Assembly (NCBI RefSeq): GCF_011044495.1
Contig: NZ_CP049143.1
Coordinates: forward strand, 4,278,001-4,342,000
Length of the DNA: 64,000 nucleotides
Reading direction: 5' to 3'
Source of the DNA: Roseimicrobium sp. ORNL1
Lineage (GTDB): Bacteria; Verrucomicrobiota; Verrucomicrobiia; Verrucomicrobiales; Verrucomicrobiaceae
Below, piece by piece: positions 2 through 11,075 of the stretch; the stretch's first letter is position 1; each line of letters begins with the position of its first letter. Position numbers and translations under genes: made by a program. The notes beneath the pieces were generated by a model, which saw only the letters and a list, made by a program, of their open reading frames with translations, did no database searches and was not told the DNA's origin.

Positions 2-2836
2 GACACCGAGGACTCCCTGGATGCAGACCCCTGGTTCTGCGGGAGCCAGCCCCACCTGGCACACCTGCCAGTGGTGCTGACGGGAAATCAACGCCTGCCC
101 AAGCCGAAAACACGCTTCATCTCCTTTGCCGATGATGAACCGATGGATGGCGATCATGAACTGCAGAAGGTAGGGCGCTGCCTCGACCGGCTCTACCCGC
201 ATGATCTGCATCACGCGCTCCTGCGGGAAACGGAAGTGAACCAACTGTGGGCGAGCTTCCGCCGCATCAGTATGAGAGCTCCCATGGTCGTGCTCGTAGG
301 CAGGCCGAAGTCAGGCAAGACAGCGATCATCCACGAATGCGTGCGCAAGTCCAACGAGACACCAGGCGTGGGACGCCGCGGCCAATATTGGCTGGTATCT
401 CCCCAACGGGTGATCAGTGGCATGTCCCACCTCGGCCAGTGGGAGGAACGCTGGACGGCCATGCTCGCCGCCATTCGGAAAGGGCGCCACGTGCTGGTGC
501 TGGATGACTTGCTCGCACTGTTCGAGGCGGGCCGATCGTCCGGAAGTGACCTCACGCTGGGCCATGTGCTGAAGGCTCGGCAGGAGCATGAACCCATTCC
601 GGTGCTTGCAGAGGCCACGCCTGAGGCCTGGGGCCGTTTGCGTGAGTTGGACCGTGCTTTCGCGAGCCAGTTCCAGGTCATTCATGTGCGTGAGACGGGT
701 GATGACGCCACACTCCGCATCCTGGTGCGCACCATGCAGGAACTGCCTCCCGGTTGCCAGTTCTCACCGGAGGTGCTGCCGGAAGTCATCCGGCTGCAGC
801 AACGCTTTGGCCGCGCCCGCGCTTTCCCAGGGAAGGCGGTGGAGATGCTCCAGGCTCTCGCAAACAACTTCAAATCAGAAACCGCGAGCGGAGATGCCAG
901 CCAAGCGACCTCCGCCTCGAATGTGCTGGAATGGTTCGCACAGCGTCACGGCATCAGCCTGGACATGATCCGCGGTGGCGGCCTCGCTCGCGATGAACTG
1001 CGCTGGCATTTCGAATGCGAAATCATGGGCCAATCCGCCGCGGTGGAAGCGATGATGGACATCGTTCTCATGGCTTCTGCCGAGCTGCAGGATCCCAGAC
1101 GACCACTGGGGTCGCTGCTCTTCCTGGGACCCACAGGAGTGGGCAAGACGGAGTGCGCCAAGGCTCTTGCCGAGATCGTGTTCGAAAGCGCGGACCGCAT
1201 GGTCCGCTTCGACCTGAATGAATACAGCGGTGATGACGCGGCCATTCGCCTCATCGGTGGACCTGGACGTGGAGGCCAGCTCACTTCACGCGTACGCCGC
1301 CAGCCTTTCACCCTGCTGCTCTTCGATGAAGTGGAGAAGGCGCATCCGGATGTCTTTGATCTGCTGCTCCAGGTGCTGGGTGAAGGACGTCTCACGGACG
1401 CGCAGGGACAAACGACGGATTTCTGCAACTGCATCATCATCCTCACCTCAAATCTGGGCGCCCGTCAGGCGCGTCAGCGCCTCGGTTTTGGTGGAAGCGA
1501 GACCGGGGATCTCCTGGCATATCGACAGGCGGCGGAGAAATTTTTCCGACCAGAGTTCTTCAATCGCCTGGATCGCATCGTGCCCTTCCACGAACTCAGA
1601 CGGCAGGACATCGAGAACCTCGCGCATGTGATGGCCCACCGTGTCCTGAAGCGGCAGGGTGTCACCGACCGCCGCGTGAATGTGTCACTGGAAAATGACG
1701 CCGTGCGCTATCTCGCTGAAAAGGGGCATGACGTCGCGTATGGCGCCCGCTCGCTGCGTCGTGCGGTGGAGACTCATCTGGTAGAGCCCCTCGCCGCCCT
1801 CATGGCGACCATGGGCACCCAGCATGCGATGAGTGCACGGGTATCCCTGGGCGATGACGGTGTGTTGGCCTTTGACCTGCAGTCCCAGCAGCAGACGCCG
1901 TTCCTCTTCACCTTGCCCGCCACGGTGACGCAAGATGAATTGTTGGATCTCATTGATGAAGCGTTTGACCTCATCGATGAGGCGGATGAGCGGCTGGATG
2001 GTTGGAATTTTGAGCAGGAAGTAGACGGAGCCATCTCCCGCCTGCGCGCCTGGTATTTCCGCCTGCGGGACGAATGCTCGGCGCTACGCTTCGGACTGAA
2101 ACGACTGGAAGACCATCTCGACCGCGAGGAGCTCGCCCGCAAGCGAGCCGCCGCCTCCCGCGCCATGAAAGGCGATCCTGTGAAGCCGAAGGACAGGCTG
2201 CACGTGCTGCCTCATGAGGTGGTGGAGGATGTACTCTCTCGTCTGCTCTCCCAGCGACTCGCTGCACATGCCATTGCGGAAGTGCTGGCCCAGGCGGTGC
2301 CACTCGATGTGGACTATGCCAGAGCCCTGCGCCTGCTGTGGAGAGCGCGGCACCTGCTTTCCGTATGCCACGAGTCCGCGGTCGAAACCGAATCGTGGAC
2401 AGTGGATATCGCTCCCTTTGATGAATACGACGGCTACTTTGAAAAGAATGACGCGCCGGAGCCGCAGAACAGTATTGCCTCCTTGAAGTGGACTCCCTCT
2501 GCCATGGCGGAGGTGATCTCCATTTCCAACAAGGAAGGCCGCCGCGTGGTGGATGGCCCCGGCCTGCAGGGCCTGATGACCGCGACCTCCGGCGTGCGCG
2601 CGAGGATCCTCAATGGCCACATGCGGCTCAACACTGTGCGGACGCGGCGCACGGGGGAGCCGGCTCCGGACAACACCGGAAATCAGATCACCTGGTTGCG
2701 CCTCGACAGCTCGCTGCTGGACCTGCGCACCGGGCTGCTGGTGCGGGACGTTCACGAGGAGGCTGGCGACCTGGCTATGGCCGTCTGCCACGGACAGCCA
2801 ACATCCACCCCTGATACACCAACTCACACCCACTGA
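2..2836 (+). CDS. Divergent Clp/ClpB-like double-AAA+ ATPase, 5' end cut by window edge
   Basis: The frame is open to base 2, so the start lies upstream and the GTG at 71 is only the first possible start in the window. Numbering from that GTG, AAA+ module 1 has Walker A GRPKSGKT (77-84), a segment SHLGQWEERW (119-128) at the place of ClpB pore loop 1, and Walker B VLVLDD (141-146). Module 2 has GPTGVGKT (353-360), LLFDE (416-420), SNLGA and the arginine-finger motif EFFNRLD (R499), followed by the ClpB-type small domain (GARSLRRAVE). The module 2 pore loop GYVG of ClpA/ClpB is missing. About 330 residues follow the second module, with a segment near 810-880 faintly like the class I release-factor PCRF domain. 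The next gene is a paralogue 5 bp downstream, so the two are probably co-transcribed and may form one complex. An unfoldase or remodelling role is inferred; the substrate is unknown. Confidence 0.85.
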   Translation, partial: DTEDSLDADPWFCGSQPHLAHLPVVLTGNQRLPKPKTRFISFADDEPMDGDHELQKVGRCLDRLYPHDLHHALLRETEVNQLWASFRRISMRAPMVVLVGRPKSGKTAIIHECVRKSNETPGVGRRGQYWLVSPQRVISGMSHLGQWEERWTAMLAAIRKGRHVLVLDDLLALFEAGRSSGSDLTLGHVLKARQEHEPIPVLAEATPEAWGRLRELDRAFASQFQVIHVRETGDDATLRILVRTMQELPPGCQFSPEVLPEVIRLQQRFGRARAFPGKAVEMLQALANNFKSETASGDASQATSASNVLEWFAQRHGISLDMIRGGGLARDELRWHFECEIMGQSAAVEAMMDIVLMASAELQDPRRPLGSLLFLGPTGVGKTECAKALAEIVFESADRMVRFDLNEYSGDDAAIRLIGGPGRGGQLTSRVRRQPFTLLLFDEVEKAHPDVFDLLLQVLGEGRLTDAQGQTTDFCNCIIILTSNLGARQARQRLGFGGSETGDLLAYRQAAEKFFRPEFFNRLDRIVPFHELRRQDIENLAHVMAHRVLKRQGVTDRRVNVSLENDAVRYLAEKGHDVAYGARSLRRAVETHLVEPLAALMATMGTQHAMSARVSLGDDGVLAFDLQSQQQTPFLFTLPATVTQDELLDLIDEAFDLIDEADERLDGWNFEQEVDGAISRLRAWYFRLRDECSALRFGLKRLEDHLDREELARKRAAASRAMKGDPVKPKDRLHVLPHEVVEDVLSRLLSQRLAAHAIAEVLAQAVPLDVDYARALRLLWRARHLLSVCHESAVETESWTVDIAPFDEYDGYFEKNDAPEPQNSIASLKWTPSAMAEVISISNKEGRRVVDGPGLQGLMTATSGVRARILNGHMRLNTVRTRRTGEPAPDNTGNQITWLRLDSSLLDLRTGLLVRDVHEEAGDLAMAVCHGQPTSTPDTPTHTH

Positions 2837-2841
2837 CGGTC

Positions 2842-5139
2842 ATGCCGCGCACGTTTCGATACCCCGTAGTCTTGTGGCATGCCAGGGAGGACCTGTGGAG
2901 TGGACGCCTCCTGGACGAGCTCTCCAGAACCGGTACCGCGAGCGGTCCCTCACCCAATGCGGTGCTGCACGAACTGAAGGACTACCTGCGAGCCGTGGAT
3001 TCCAGTGAGAACGACGCTCTTCCCGATCCGGACTTCCTGGAGCCCACGCTGCGCACCGTGAAGATACAGGCGGTGCCGGAGTATGAGACACCTCCCGGGC
3101 CCACGGGCAGGAGACGCATCGTGCCCTGCGCGGAGCCAGTCACGCTGCGACTTCCCTATGTGGTGGGCAAGCGTGAGAGTGGTCTCATCTGCGCGCTCAT
3201 TCCGGGGCTGGATGTCGAGTTCGACGTGAGCAGCGGCGAGCGCGTGGATGAAATGGCGCTGCACTATGCCCGGCAGGCGCTGAAGGGGCTCGCTCCCGCG
3301 CAGCTGCTGCGCTACCTGCCCAATGGTCCCTGCGTGCTGGATTCCATTTCCTTCAGCCCACGGCGCAGGAAGGAGAAGGGGTTTCGCGCGCCCACGGAAT
3401 CCCTTGCCAAGATCGCGGACCCGGTAGATGCCGCAGCCCTGCGACGCACGGTGCGCTCCTGGCCTCATGAGCGTGAGCAATCGATCAACGATCTCACCAA
3501 TCGCCTGGCACAGAAGTCAGGGAACATCCTGCTCGTTGGAAAGTCTGGTTGCGGGAAGAGTGCGGTGCTGCTCGAGGCCATTCGCCGTCTTTCACGAATG
3601 GCGACGGAAGAGGACCAAGCGAAGGAGCATCGCTTCTGGATTACCAGCGGCTCACGCATCATCGCGGGCATGCGCTGGCTGGGCCAGTGGCAGGAAAGGC
3701 TGGAGGAGGTCATTCAAGAAATCCGCGACATGAACGGGGTGCTCTGCATTGAGAGCCTCCAAGAACTCATGCGCCTGGGTGGGACCACGCCAGAGAGCAG
3801 CCTCGCAGCCTTCCTTGTTCCGTATCTGCGTTTCCAGGAAGTACGCCTGGTGGTGGAGGCCACACCTGAGGAAGTGGAAGCCTGTGAGCGTAGTCTGCCT
3901 GCGTTTCTGGATGCCTTCAGCATGATCCGCATGGACGCCCTCTCAGCTGGCAGTGAGGAGAGCATCCTGCAGCAGGCAGCAGTCTCACTCAGTGCCCGGC
4001 ATTCTCTCGAGTTCGTGCCCGAGGCCGCGAGTGAGGCGGGACGTCTCTGTCGGCGCTTCCTGCCCTACGCGGGATTCCCCGCCACGCCTCTCACGCACAT
4101 GAATGATGCAGCGGCAAAGGCCCAGGAGCTGGGTGCCGAGGTCGTGCATCTGACGGAAGTGCGGCGCGGGATTGCTACGGCCACAGGGTTGCCGGAGGCA
4201 TTGCTCGACGAAAGCAGTCTGCTGGAACCTGCCGACCTAAAACGCTGGTTCAGCGAGCGTCTCATCTCACAACCTCATGCCGTAGACGCGGTGTGCCGCA
4301 CCATCCTGAAGTTCAAGGCGGGCCTCAATGATCCGGCACGCCCGCTAGCCGTACTCCTTTTCACCGGCCCCACCGGAACAGGAAAAACGCAACTCGCGAA
4401 GCTGCTGGGCGACTACCTCTTTCCGAATCGCAAGGCCGCGGACCGACTGGTGCGGCTCGACATGAGCGAGTACAGCGGCTACGACGCAGCACGGCGCCTG
4501 CTGGGTGATCCGTTTGGAGAACCGTCCGACTTGGTGAAGCGCATGCGGCAGAATCCTTTCGGCGTGCTGCTCTTCGATGAGGTAGAGAAGGCGTCACCAG
4601 AGGTCTTCGACACGCTGATGAATGTCTTTGAAGAAGGCCGGCTCACGGATGCCCTGGGACGCACCACGTGGTTCCGCAGCACGGTCATCATCATGACCTC
4701 CAATCTAGGAACGCGCAAAGGTGGCGCACCCGGCTTCACGCCAGATGCCATTACGGAAGGCGCACGTGTGGACAGTGCTGCGGTGACAAAGTTCTTCCGG
4801 CCGGAGTTCTTCAACCGTCTGGACCAAGTGGTGACCTTTGATCCGCTCCATCGCGATGCCGTGGAGCAGATCGCCCGGCGCGAAGTCGCCGCCCTCGAAG
4901 AACGTGAAGGCCTGCGCGCTCGCAACATCACTCTTCGTATCAGTGACGCCATGCTCCGCCTGGTGAGTGAGCGCGGATTCGACCCAGTCTATGGCGCACG
5001 CCCCCTGCAGCGCCGCATCGAGGAACTCATCACCACACCTTTGGCCGCGTGGTTGGTAGCCAATCCGCAAGAGCAAAATCGTGTACTCAACGTGGAGTGG
5101 GATCCCTCAGGGAGAACCGTGGTATCTCCGCAGCGGTGA
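2842..5139 (+). CDS. Second divergent Clp/ClpB-like double-AAA+ ATPase (765 aa)
   Basis: Starts 5 bp after the preceding paralogue. Residues 1-200 form an N-terminal region I do not recognise; the upstream protein probably carries a matching one beyond the window edge. AAA+ module 1 has Walker A GKSGCGKS (233-240) and a pore-loop-like stretch MRWLGQWQERL (277-287), but its Walker B reads LCIES, lacking the usual Asp-Glu pair, so hydrolysis there may be impaired. Module 2 is intact: GPTGTGKT (509-516), LLFDE (576-580), SNLGT and EFFNRLD with arginine finger R659, then the GARPLQRRIEE small domain that ends the protein. As in its neighbour, the GYVG pore loop of module 2 is replaced by unrelated sequence. 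The gene lacks the long C-terminal extension of the first. The Clp/Hsp100 class is clear; the name ClpB itself is not justified. Confidence 0.88.
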   Translation: MPRTFRYPVVLWHAREDLWSGRLLDELSRTGTASGPSPNAVLHELKDYLRAVDSSENDALPDPDFLEPTLRTVKIQAVPEYETPPGPTGRRRIVPCAEPVTLRLPYVVGKRESGLICALIPGLDVEFDVSSGERVDEMALHYARQALKGLAPAQLLRYLPNGPCVLDSISFSPRRRKEKGFRAPTESLAKIADPVDAAALRRTVRSWPHEREQSINDLTNRLAQKSGNILLVGKSGCGKSAVLLEAIRRLSRMATEEDQAKEHRFWITSGSRIIAGMRWLGQWQERLEEVIQEIRDMNGVLCIESLQELMRLGGTTPESSLAAFLVPYLRFQEVRLVVEATPEEVEACERSLPAFLDAFSMIRMDALSAGSEESILQQAAVSLSARHSLEFVPEAASEAGRLCRRFLPYAGFPATPLTHMNDAAAKAQELGAEVVHLTEVRRGIATATGLPEALLDESSLLEPADLKRWFSERLISQPHAVDAVCRTILKFKAGLNDPARPLAVLLFTGPTGTGKTQLAKLLGDYLFPNRKAADRLVRLDMSEYSGYDAARRLLGDPFGEPSDLVKRMRQNPFGVLLFDEVEKASPEVFDTLMNVFEEGRLTDALGRTTWFRSTVIIMTSNLGTRKGGAPGFTPDAITEGARVDSAAVTKFFRPEFFNRLDQVVTFDPLHRDAVEQIARREVAALEEREGLRARNITLRISDAMLRLVSERGFDPVYGARPLQRRIEELITTPLAAWLVANPQEQNRVLNVEWDPSGRTVVSPQR

Positions 5140-9304: not shown

Positions 9305-10204
9305 ATGCAGGTCACTTCATTGGAAGAAACTTTCCATCGGCAGCCACGGAGTTGGTGTTATACACTCCGCGCGCTGGCAGCATGCCTTCTGGCCTATATC
9401 CTTCTTTATGGATGGGAATTGGTGGCCGGTCCTGATATGCCCAAGCAGTACTCCGCTACTGGGCGCATCCATGTAATGGAGGCAAAGGTTCTCAGTGGCG
9501 ACAGCAGCGAAGCCGCAGCGAAAAAGAATGCCTTGCTTCAGTCGCACGTGCCCATGCTCAATCATCCCGACATCCCGCGGAATGCCAGGGAGCGGGTCCG
9601 CATGTCCCATCCGGACCTGCAGTTGCAAGACATTGAGTTGCATATCTCCATGACACAACTGAACGGCAAGCCGGTGATCGAGATGTCGGCAAAGAGCACG
9701 GACCCTGCTTTCCTGACTGCTTACATCAATGAAGCGATGGGAGAATACGTCGCCATGATGAGGAAGGAACGTGAGCGCGAATGGACAAACACCCCGAGGT
9801 ACAAGGCATTCGCGGCGGCGGCGCTCGAGTATCAACAGCTCTTCAAGGAACTCAATGAGCTCGAAAGGCAATTGAAGGCATTGTCTGACAGCCACACACC
9901 CGACGCGTCGCTCTCCGCACTGAAACTTCAAATTGACGAGAATAAGAAGCAAATGGTAAGGGCGCGGGAAGTCGCCATCCGCCTTTCTCCCGGGGATACG
10001 ACGAACACCCCGCCATTTGACATCGGGGAGCTGCCAAAACCGGAAGTATTCAAGCATCGCAGGGATCCGTATTCACTGGTCATCCACCACCCATGGCGTG
10101 CTCTGGTTTCACTCAGTCTCGCGTGGCTCCTGGCAGTGCTTCTTTTGCCACTTCGCCGCGCCGCTCCCCCTGAAGGTCCAATGCCTCAGCCAACTGAAGC
10201 GTAG
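9305..10204 (+). CDS. Wzz-like (chain-length-determinant-type) two-TM membrane protein
   Basis: A 299-residue protein with one membrane segment near residues 22-42 and a second near 261-283, enclosing a periplasmic region with a coiled coil (about 165-215, rich in Glu, Lys and Leu). The topology and the short Pro-rich C-terminal tail match Wzz/polysaccharide co-polymerases, but I cannot see a diagnostic Wzz motif and there is no cytoplasmic kinase domain. After TM1 it carries GPDMPKQYSATGRIHV, closely matched by GPDKPTLYLASGKIHI in the next gene, so the two are paralogues. Both also share AYINE and HHPWRA/RHPWRA just before TM2. It starts 64 bp from the divergent dehydrogenase start at 9204-9240. 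A role in exopolysaccharide export or envelope organisation is an inference from topology only. Confidence 0.75.
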   Translation: MQVTSLEETFHRQPRSWCYTLRALAACLLAYILLYGWELVAGPDMPKQYSATGRIHVMEAKVLSGDSSEAAAKKNALLQSHVPMLNHPDIPRNARERVRMSHPDLQLQDIELHISMTQLNGKPVIEMSAKSTDPAFLTAYINEAMGEYVAMMRKEREREWTNTPRYKAFAAAALEYQQLFKELNELERQLKALSDSHTPDASLSALKLQIDENKKQMVRAREVAIRLSPGDTTNTPPFDIGELPKPEVFKHRRDPYSLVIHHPWRALVSLSLAWLLAVLLLPLRRAAPPEGPMPQPTEA

Positions 10205-10256
10205 ATAATTTCCGGTCCTGGTCCCCTTGCTTTCTCCCTCTCAGAGGCCTTTCACG

Positions 10257-11075
10257 ATGTCCCAGAATCTCGCCTCGAAGCTTCCTTCCCTGCGGCAAGT
10301 CTTGCGCGTCGTCCTAATCTGCGTGTTGGGCACTGGCTTCCTGTACACATGGGAGATCTGGGTTGGGCCGGACAAACCAACGCTGTATCTTGCGTCGGGA
10401 AAGATCCACATAAACAACATCCACCATAGCGGAAAGGATGACGTGCTGACGTCAACTGTCTACAATAACCACCTGGCAGTGTTCGAATCTCCGGCCCTAC
10501 ATCGTAATGCGGCGGAGCGAGTCTCCATGGCTCATCCCGAACTTACTTCGGTGCCTGTGAAGACTCAATGCCGCAGGACACCCGGCAGCTCCATTGTTGA
10601 AGTTTCGGGGATAGCCAGCGAACCCCGCTATGTGCAGGCGTACATCAATGAATTGCTTTCCGAATACATCGCCAAGCGGAGGAACGTTCAAGATTCGAGG
10701 ACTGCTCAACAGAGGCAAATGATACAACATTTGCTACTCGCGCAACGCGACGTGGCTGAGGTCAAACTGGCTCTTGAGGCTCTTTCCACGTCCACTCCTC
10801 ATGCTGGAAGCCGGACAAAAGCCGAACTCGAAGAAGCTCTGGTAGAGGCCAAGGAAAGATATCAGTTCTGGAAGGACCTGACGAGTGTCTACTATAACGA
10901 CGGCTGCGGCGGCGATCAGGTCGCAATCCTTGAACTCGCGGGACCAGCCACTCCCGTGGAAGACAAGCTCGACCCACGTTCCGTGATCACGCGCCATCCA
11001 TGGCGCGCGGTGGCCTCTTTCGGCGTGGCAGCGCTCCTTTCTCTAGGACTGATTCCCGCAAGACGGCGCCCCTAG
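10257..11075 (+). CDS. Second Wzz-like two-TM membrane protein, paralogue of the upstream gene
   Basis: The ATG at 10257 is preferred over the TTG at 10227 because AGAGG lies 9 bases upstream. The 272-residue product has a membrane segment near residues 18-38, a periplasmic part with a coiled coil and a second membrane segment just before a short basic tail (PARRRP). It shares with its neighbour the post-TM1 motif GPDxPxxYxAxGKIHI, the sequence NAAERVSMAHPEL (cf. NARERVRMSHPDL), AYINELLSEYIA and the HPWRA motif before TM2. Duplication is therefore evident, though the middle has diverged. The pair might form a hetero-oligomer in the inner membrane. No glycosyltransferase, polymerase or kinase gene is nearby, so assigning it to a polysaccharide pathway would go beyond the evidence. 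Confidence 0.75.
   Translation: MSQNLASKLPSLRQVLRVVLICVLGTGFLYTWEIWVGPDKPTLYLASGKIHINNIHHSGKDDVLTSTVYNNHLAVFESPALHRNAAERVSMAHPELTSVPVKTQCRRTPGSSIVEVSGIASEPRYVQAYINELLSEYIAKRRNVQDSRTAQQRQMIQHLLLAQRDVAEVKLALEALSTSTPHAGSRTKAELEEALVEAKERYQFWKDLTSVYYNDGCGGDQVAILELAGPATPVEDKLDPRSVITRHPWRAVASFGVAALLSLGLIPARRRP

Follow-up and report, generated by a model that had tools for sequence, protein, structure and literature searches.

Bacterial double-ring AAA+ proteins are, to our knowledge, homo-oligomers that thread their substrate with aromatic loops. Here we describe three adjacent genes, A, B and C, on the chromosome of Roseimicrobium sp. ORNL1 (Verrucomicrobiota), whose products depart from this pattern threefold: they are three co-inherited paralogues, their predicted ATPase ring is without the gripping loop, and release factor (RF)-like folds are fused to the ATPase. 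The window analysed, a stretch of 64,000 nucleotides (NZ_CP049143.1, positions 4,278,001 to 4,342,000 of the forward strand), holds only the end of B and the whole of C.

In architecture, A-B-C resemble ClpA/ClpC and ClpB/Hsp104, with which they share the double AAA+ arrangement, the D2-small domain and, in most of the aligned rows, a ClpC-like [LIVM]G[FL] loop. Unlike Clp/Hsp100 proteins, they are without the GYVG loop of module 2, the hydrolysis residues of module 1 and, by spacing, the M-domain; they have a putative HicB-like N-domain where Clp proteins have Clp_N, come as three paralogues, and bear RF-like C-terminal arms on A and B. The arms are like class-I RF1/RF2 (bRF-PH) in having a helical part and a domain 2/4 fold, with an invariant Y, E-x-G, R and D, and unlike them in that the GGQ hydrolase domain is absent, the codon-reading stretch is unconserved, and the whole is fused to AAA+ modules.

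Among other AAA+ machines, the Pex1/Pex6 heterohexamer is also built of paralogous type II subunits, whose D1 ring is degenerate and whose ATPase activity resides in D2 (PMC4490564); A-B-C, for which we infer assembly, differ in that there are three paralogues rather than two, the modules are of the Clp type, D2 has no GYVG-type aromatic loop, and the ends are RF-like and HicB-like. The same paper states that in NSF and p97 energy is thought to be passed to the N-domains via conformational change. TorsinA, a Clp-related AAA+ protein without the pore-loop consensus, has been argued not to thread (PMC4999309); in contrast to A-B-C, it is a single AAA+ module that works with LAP1/LULL1 and is not known to have an RF-like domain. 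Conceptually, A-B-C also recall Dom34/Pelota, a catalytically dead RF relative in ribosome rescue, and Vms1-Cdc48, an RF relative working with an AAA+ ATPase (both from PMC6514570). Dom34/Pelota and Vms1, however, belong to the structurally unrelated archaeo-eukaryotic RF superfamily, whereas in our family the RF fold is of the bacterial kind and is joined covalently to the Clp ATPase. Among the matches listed in open PMC full text, a collection that most subscription papers and preprints lie outside, we found no description of a Clp-RF fusion or of an A-B-C triplet; for the combination of a Clp-type double-ring AAA+ protein with an RF fold we thus found no precedent.

Three Clp-type paralogues in one operon

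A sequence-only reading of the window had noted tandem Clp-like paralogues 5 bp apart, and this was borne out. The genes form one three-gene operon, A-B-C, of which the following parts concern the window:

L007:15564-18836, + strand: gene B, whole (1090 amino acids; starts 437 bases left of the window's edge)
2..2836, + strand: gene B, window part (codons 147 to stop, that is, the last 944 codons plus the stop; open at the window's first bases)
2842..5139, + strand: gene C (765 amino acids)

The first of the two genes noted is cut by the window edge, the true protein being 1090 amino acids long. The sequence-only reading had also suggested looking left of the window for a partner, and there, on the same chromosome (left flank, L007), lies a third paralogue, gene A (L007:12229-15567, 1112 amino acids), which overlaps B by 4 bp; the gap between B and C is 5 bp. 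The end of a major facilitator superfamily (MFS) transporter gene is 74 bp upstream of A. The RF-like C-termini and this third subunit are the most telling features of the locus, beyond the pair first noticed.

Each of A, B and C has two AAA+ modules and a ClpB-type D2-small domain, and aligns with ClpB, ClpC and ClpA over both modules; domain scans and ClpB alignments thus confirm this architecture for the two window proteins, as had been claimed. In the window it is laid out as follows:

209..1894, + strand: B, two AAA+ modules and D2-small domain (residues 216-777, limits approximate)
1127..1150, + strand: B module 2, Walker A GPTGVGKT (motif)
1256..1294, + strand: B module 2, shortened loop GGPGRGGQLTSRV, no GYVG (ClpB alignment)
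1313..1330, + strand: B module 2, Walker B LLLFDE, intact (motif)
3457..5136, + strand: C, two AAA+ modules and D2-small domain (residues 206-765)
4366..4389, + strand: C module 2, Walker A GPTGTGKT (motif)
4504..4536, + strand: C module 2, shortened loop GDPFGEPSDLV, no GYVG (ClpB alignment)
4567..4581, + strand: C module 2, Walker B LLFDE, intact (motif)

Residues were counted in 97 aligned rows (32 A, 36 B and 29 C, this operon's three included) against a reference set for the motif columns of eight proteins, seven ClpB-type and one ClpC-like. Two wrong-frame open reading frames (ORFs), C_L055 and C_L057, were removed before counting, and L047/L048, which appear identical to L041/L042, were excluded from the alignment. 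Four divergent A rows (A_L046, A_L071, A_L073 and A_L076) were kept in the residue counts and excluded from the A extension alignment; the B rows of L068, L074, L083 and L084 are partial.

Module 2 keeps every catalytic residue inspected: the Walker A K, Walker B D and E, sensor-1 N, arginine finger and sensor-2 R are each present in 97/97 rows. The column of the D2 pore tyrosine, in contrast, holds Y in 0/97 family rows as against 8/8 references; it is a gap in 32/32 A, 36/36 B and 28/29 C rows, the remaining C row having G. The stretch from RL(I/V)G to the next helix reads GAPPGYVGYEEGG in ClpB, GGPGRGG in B and GDPFGEPSD in C, so that the loop is ~5 residues shorter than in ClpB, the missing part being the GYVG stretch. 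The claim that this loop is replaced in both window proteins is therefore confirmed; in residue-level ClpB alignments the stretch is deleted. Nor is a GYVG-equivalent loop found elsewhere in the aligned module-2 stretch, a single A row (L076) fitting a loose pattern through GHAG.

Module 1 has undergone a different change:

299..322, + strand: B module 1, Walker A GRPKSGKT (motif)
494..508, + strand: B module 1, Walker B region LVLDD, aspartate at the glutamate position (motif)
3538..3561, + strand: C module 1, Walker A GKSGCGKS (motif)
3742..3756, + strand: C module 1, LCIES where Walker B LFIDE is expected (motif)

The Walker A K of module 1 is present in 97/97 rows, whereas the Walker B E is found in 1/97 and the two finger arginines of ClpB in 0/97. 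In this operon the ClpB motif LFIDE has become LFLGN in A, LVLDD in B and LCIES in C. ES in place of the Walker B acid pair had thus been read correctly in C, but its restriction to the second protein falls, as the glutamate is lost from all three. Since the Walker A K is kept while the Walker B E and both finger arginines are gone, module 1 should, as predicted from these motifs, bind ATP without hydrolysing it.

None of the three scores as a known Clp subfamily. ClpB was the best NCBIfam model for A, B and C, at 317.9, 327.8 and 296.0 bits, respectively (TIGR03346), all below the cut-off of 1232.1; ClpA (TIGR02639) gave 303, 306 and 272 bits, all below 993. The spacing between the two Walker A motifs is 269 (A), 276 (B) and 276 (C) amino acids versus 402 in one ClpB, which, judged by spacing only, leaves no room for a full M-domain. 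Clp_N was not among the 24 Pfam matches of B, nor among the best 25 of 47 for A and the best 25 of 49 for C. No known family holding both window genes emerged, Pfam, NCBIfam and PADLOC giving general AAA+/Clp families or sub-cut-off matches. Model-level PADLOC matches to PDC-M37B, DolB, mad8, IetA and others lay only in the AAA+ parts, and we rejected them as a defence assignment. By the features tested, A-B-C fall outside the curated definitions of ClpB, ClpA/ClpC and RF.

Release-factor-like and putative HicB-like ends

In most full-length rows, A and B continue for ~300-370 residues beyond the D2-small domain; C has no such extension. The window holds one of these extensions, and the N-terminal domain of C:

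1895..2833, + strand: B C-terminal extension, diverged RF-like, no GGQ domain (residues 778-1090; profile evidence)
2842..3456, + strand: C N-terminal domain, HicB-like fold, moderate support (residues 1-205)

Motifs that look like those of RF1/RF2 were seen by eye in the extension alignment, and RF homology was therefore put to profile, structure and shuffle tests. The target profile comprised 16 RFs of 31 RF loci from Verrucomicrobiota genomes, chosen by an ORF match to G[ASN]GGQ. Against it, hhalign gave the A extension a probability of 89% (score 50.9) and the B extension 80% (45.7); a profile of just two RFs gave 41% and 10%, respectively. Block-shuffled controls (40 each) reached at most 34.5 for A and 23.4 for B, reversed controls did not exceed 25.2, and the N-domains, used as a negative control, gave 0.1-0.4%. 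Aligned globally, the A extension matched at 94% over 286 columns. When the A-extension profile was run against PDB sequences (hmmsearch), the best match was RF2 (E 6.4e-6); 34 sequences scored at E up to 10, and 26 of them, among these all of the best 20, are RFs. The B-extension profile had RF1 as its top two matches (E 0.008), followed by unrelated proteins from 0.11 upward.

The predicted structure points the same way. The A extension was modelled with AlphaFold from 26 sequences (pLDDT 87, pTM 0.82), and a Foldseek search with this model returned class-I RFs at all of ranks 1-49 (RF1, RF2, mtRF1, mtRF1a and PrfH), the best at E 1.3e-6 and 36 rows at E up to 0.001. VIA-align placed it on RF2 with Z 14.7 (260 residues, 7.3 Å) and on Bacillus subtilis RF2 with Z 13.2 (141 residues, 3.0 Å). 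Among 26 A extensions, seven columns hold the same residue in all or nearly all rows. Five of these columns, each in the beta-rich part, are aligned to positions that do not vary in 16/16 RFs: Y165, E238, G240, R312 and D/E at 323 (extension numbering). The hydrolase domain is missing. Nothing in the A extension pairs with RF residues 228-245, where GGQ lies, or with 255-293; G[ASGN]GGQ occurs in 0/27 A and 0/31 B extensions, and the bare letters GGQ appear in one A row and one B row, with unconserved surroundings.

Judged from the predicted model together with the sequence profiles, the A extension (~330 residues) is homologous to class-I peptide release factors, retaining the fold of the helical part and domain 2/4 and having lost the GGQ domain. 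The B extension is, from the weaker profile evidence, probably a more diverged copy of the same domain. In bacterial RFs, as described by Burroughs and Aravind (PMC6514570), the hydrolase domain is an insert in the stop-codon-recognition domain, to which a GTPase-interacting helical domain is in turn fused; the A extension resembles this arrangement minus the hydrolase insert.

At the other end, the N-domains are homologous among the paralogues (hhalign: A-B 97%, A-C 97%, B-C 58%). A model of the C N-domain (pLDDT 84, pTM 0.72) matched HicB or HicAB entries in VIA at ranks 1-5 and 7, the best with Z 8.9 (2.4 Å, 82 residues). Foldseek returned two HicB/HicAB entries with probability 0.94 and 0.97 (E ~0.2-0.3), with unrelated rows ranked higher, and a profile search placed HicB at rank 1 (E 0.37, non-significant). 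With moderate confidence, and on the modelled fold, we regard the C N-domain as HicB-like. HicB belongs to a translation-linked family.

Spread, co-inheritance and selection

A-B-C is a real, selected three-gene family, widespread but uncommon. Among 57 genomes (this one and relatives), C orthologues occur in 8, all of which also have A and B. A scan of a public genome collection gave 41 loci, from Verrucomicrobiota, Planctomycetota, Acidobacteria-type bacteria, Myxococcaceae and Uabimicrobium, and from one deltaproteobacterial, one Chloroflexi and one gammaproteobacterial metagenome-assembled genome (MAG). Read by eye, 21 of 49 distinct loci (51 minus two duplicates) have complete A-B-C in that order on one strand; one locus beyond these, L084, has the order with broken frames, and the remaining loci are truncated by contig ends, hold one or two genes, or are divergent. 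Of the 20 genomes reached through the loci, 16 carry all three genes as we read them (in some, C sits on a different contig from A-B, or A on a different one from B-C); another has just A and B, and the other three contain divergent, untypeable members.

Two departures from the usual layout were seen. In a deltaproteobacterial MAG, two tandem genes (L137:2-916 and 927-4328), each with an A-type RF-like extension at its end (46.6 and 146.7 bits), are perhaps an older two-gene form. At L143:2000-11179, which is the same locus as L084, the triplet lies in six reading frames, through decay or a low-coverage assembly.

Co-occurrence was also seen with non-overlapping profiles. Those of the C N-domain and the A extension marked the same 23/294 Planctomycetota genomes (E up to 1e-6), and the B-extension profile 20 of these 23, plus a weak score in 2 others; at most 10 (C N-domain), 7 (A) and 7 (B) best candidates were scored per genome. 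The pair's upstream neighbour, whose co-occurrence the sequence-only reading had proposed to check, is also present in all 8 of the above genomes with C orthologues. The Planctomycetota draw was centred on genome G431 and included at least 3 further members known beforehand as carriers, the genomes are related and the genes often linked; for these reasons, and given the limited candidates scored, 23/294 cannot be taken as an exact frequency or as 23 independent events. The family is rare in Verrucomicrobiota (3/387 evenly drawn genomes by the C N-domain profile, at most 8 candidates per genome). No match to C was found among plasmid records at E 1e-75.

In an unrooted tree of 104 rows made by a quick method, with C_L061 left out, B, C and the ClpB/ClpC references were each set apart by a single branch (support 99, 100 and 100), and so were 28/32 A rows (99), four long-branched A-like rows lying outside. 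The ratio of nonsynonymous to synonymous substitution (dN/dS) against a sister species is 0.12 for A, 0.14 for B and 0.06 for C, and 0.16 and 0.24 for the RF-like parts; the synonymous distances, 0.9-1.7, approach saturation. Purifying selection acts on each of the three genes and on both extensions.

Possible function and genomic neighbours

Our preferred reading, to which we give slightly less than an even chance, is that A-B-C would be a hetero-oligomeric remodeler of the Clp/Hsp100 type, encoded by three genes, driven by module 2, non-threading, and aimed by its RF arms, perhaps at ribosomes. With three paralogues occurring together, each with a complete module-2 site, A, B and C would quite probably form one mixed ring. 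The sequence-only reading had proposed a specialised multi-subunit machine and no general disaggregase. That proposal gains support from the joint occurrence of three paralogue clades and from the other Clp-type ATPases of this genome, of which there are at least 2 and which retain GYVG in the sequenced parts examined (L003 and L004); the hetero-complex itself is what we infer. Ring 1 would rather likely be a nucleotide-held scaffold, and ring 2 a motor that, as proposed for p97 and NSF, moves the attached domains rather than threading substrate through itself.

It is with domains 2/4 and the helical domain that true RFs contact the decoding centre and the GTPase centre. From these contacts, the simplest reading would be a machine working at the ribosomal A site or with an RF partner. 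The RF-like arms might, with a chance we put at somewhat under even, dock the machine on ribosomes or another translation component without peptidyl-tRNA hydrolysis, ATP then serving to clear or remodel the complex. A sharper version is doubtful: dead RF arms would go into, or stand guard over, the A site of ribosomes that are stalled or inactive, and module-2 ATP hydrolysis would split these ribosomes or remove factors from them. With the same doubt, such a machine could be compared to Dom34 plus an ATPase, or Vms1 plus Cdc48, in eukaryotes, as their covalent bacterial counterpart. If the arms bind ribosomes, Planctomycetota, Verrucomicrobiota and Acidobacteria, in which translation quality control has in our judgement received little study, would have a new pathway of ribosome rescue or quality control. 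Even if the RF fold is merely a scaffold, a translation factor would have been turned into a machine part, and whether a Clp ring works without threading becomes directly testable.

Several observations weigh against this reading. Pfam RF domains, including PCRF (PF03462), had no match in 10 extensions at E up to 10, a result of curated hidden Markov models that is no test of remote homology. Leaving out the helical part lowers the hhalign scores to 39.4 for A and 38.6 for B; helical parts can also inflate VIA Z, and two of the seven conserved A-extension columns, both in the helical part, are without a conserved RF counterpart. Global alignment of the B extension to RFs is weak (53%). Whole-chain superposition on RFs is loose (Foldseek RF rows: TM 0.20-0.40, root-mean-square deviation at least 9.5 Å); we attribute the low TM-scores to the interdomain hinge and the missing domain. 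The HicB match is modest (Z 8.9, Foldseek E 0.2, profile E 0.37). With the GGQ domain lost and the codon-reading stretch of RFs unconserved in the extensions, classical A-site recognition cannot be assumed. Mean column identity is 26% in the A and 25% in the B extension versus 49% for the whole of C, unlike what tight binding to conserved rRNA would predict; this poor conservation and the lost codon-reading stretch weaken the A-site reading. As to the missing GYVG loop, an aromatic residue still lies within the shortened module 2 loop in 10/32 A, 20/36 B and 5/29 C rows, and the GHAG of row L076 fits the loose GYVG-like pattern. Finally, BLAST clustering of neighbours from 51 loci yielded few recurring families, each in 2 to 5 loci.

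Plausible, though we lean against it, is that the RF fold was exapted for assembly or substrate recognition, the machine remodelling a non-ribosomal complex in Planctomycetota-Verrucomicrobiota-Chlamydiota (PVC) bacteria and their relatives. This would fit the RF-like parts being the least conserved and fastest evolving, the absence of both the GGQ domain and the codon-reading stretch, and the fact that no translation gene recurs among the clustered neighbours; it sits less well with the residues of the beta-rich part of the A extension, whose invariance is shared with RFs, and with the HicB-like fold at the other end, also from a translation-linked family.

An unlikely alternative is a ClpP-partnered hetero-unfoldase, in which an xGF loop of module 2 would dock ClpP while the module 1 aromatic loops of B and C grip the substrate. 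The sites concerned are:

1478..1489, + strand: B module 2 RLGF, at the position of the ClpP-docking loop of ClpA/ClpC (alignment)
4726..4737, + strand: C module 2 APGF, at the ClpP-docking loop position (alignment)

Between module 2 sensor 1 and the arginine finger, at the position of ClpC's ClpP loop, [LIVM]G[FL] is found in 20/32 A, 31/36 B and 23/29 C rows, as against 0/7 ClpB-type and 1/1 ClpC-like references. The host genome encodes a ClpP, and the D1 pore-loop site is aromatic (Y, W or F) in 29/29 C and, as Y or F, in 28/36 B rows. Because of the ClpP-like loop, coupled proteolysis may yet have a part. However, module 1 is non-hydrolysing by motif and module 2 has no gripping loop; A has the D1 aromatic in 4/32 rows and is without it in 28/32 (F stands one position beyond in 24/32); this operon has MGF in A and LGF in B but PGF in C; and no clpP gene was seen in the operon.

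It is quite improbable that A-B-C are a conflict (defence) system, with the RF-like arms as a sensor or decoy for attacks on translation. The patchy spread (3/387 Verrucomicrobiota, 23/294 Planctomycetota, and scattered Acidobacteria, Myxococcaceae and gammaproteobacterial MAG loci) and the DNA methylase gene after C in one locus would suit such a role. Yet the PADLOC model matches fall in the AAA+ parts, plasmid records hold no match to C at the threshold given above, Pfam, NCBIfam and PADLOC found no effector domain in A, B or C, and reading the recurring neighbours by eye turned up no defence family, most neighbours being unscanned. That A-B-C are a general ClpB-like disaggregase minus one pore loop is scarcely credible: ClpB is the best NCBIfam model for all three and their PDB matches are ClpB/ClpC, but they score 296-328 bits against a cut-off of 1232, have no M-domain by Walker A spacing (269-276 versus 402), a module 1 dead by motif, three co-inherited paralogues and RF-like arms, and occur in genomes that also have ClpB-like proteins of ordinary length.

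The neighbouring genes vary. The MFS gene upstream of A clusters solely with that of a same-genus relative, and no translation gene recurred among the clustered neighbours. Seven neighbour proteins were scanned with Pfam. In two Acidobacteria-type loci a protein of 1664-1670 amino acids stands beside or between the genes (L075:16485-21479 and L078:3711-8723); Pfam gave DUF5724-DUF4132-DUF7737 for the L075 copy, and the L078 copy is its BLAST relative. A Ser/Thr protein kinase-like gene (by eye; L126:4315-6171) occupies part of the 2.6 kb that separate A from B in a Gemmataceae genome (G432), and in the related G431 A and B are likewise ~2 kb apart. A TsaD gene (tRNA t6A modification; L065:2255-3319) ends 5 bp before A in Uabimicrobium and was not seen elsewhere among the few neighbours scanned, and in a different locus a DNA methylase-type gene (N6_N4_Mtase; L049:10652-12040) lies directly 3' of C. 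Large proteins with CotH and lamin-tail domains near two triplets (L045:15158-19882 and L080:1-4467) are probably a coincidence. Further along the window, at 9305-10204 and 10227-11075, are tandem proteins of 299 and 282 amino acids with similar ends, like chain-length determinants (Wzz-type) by eye.

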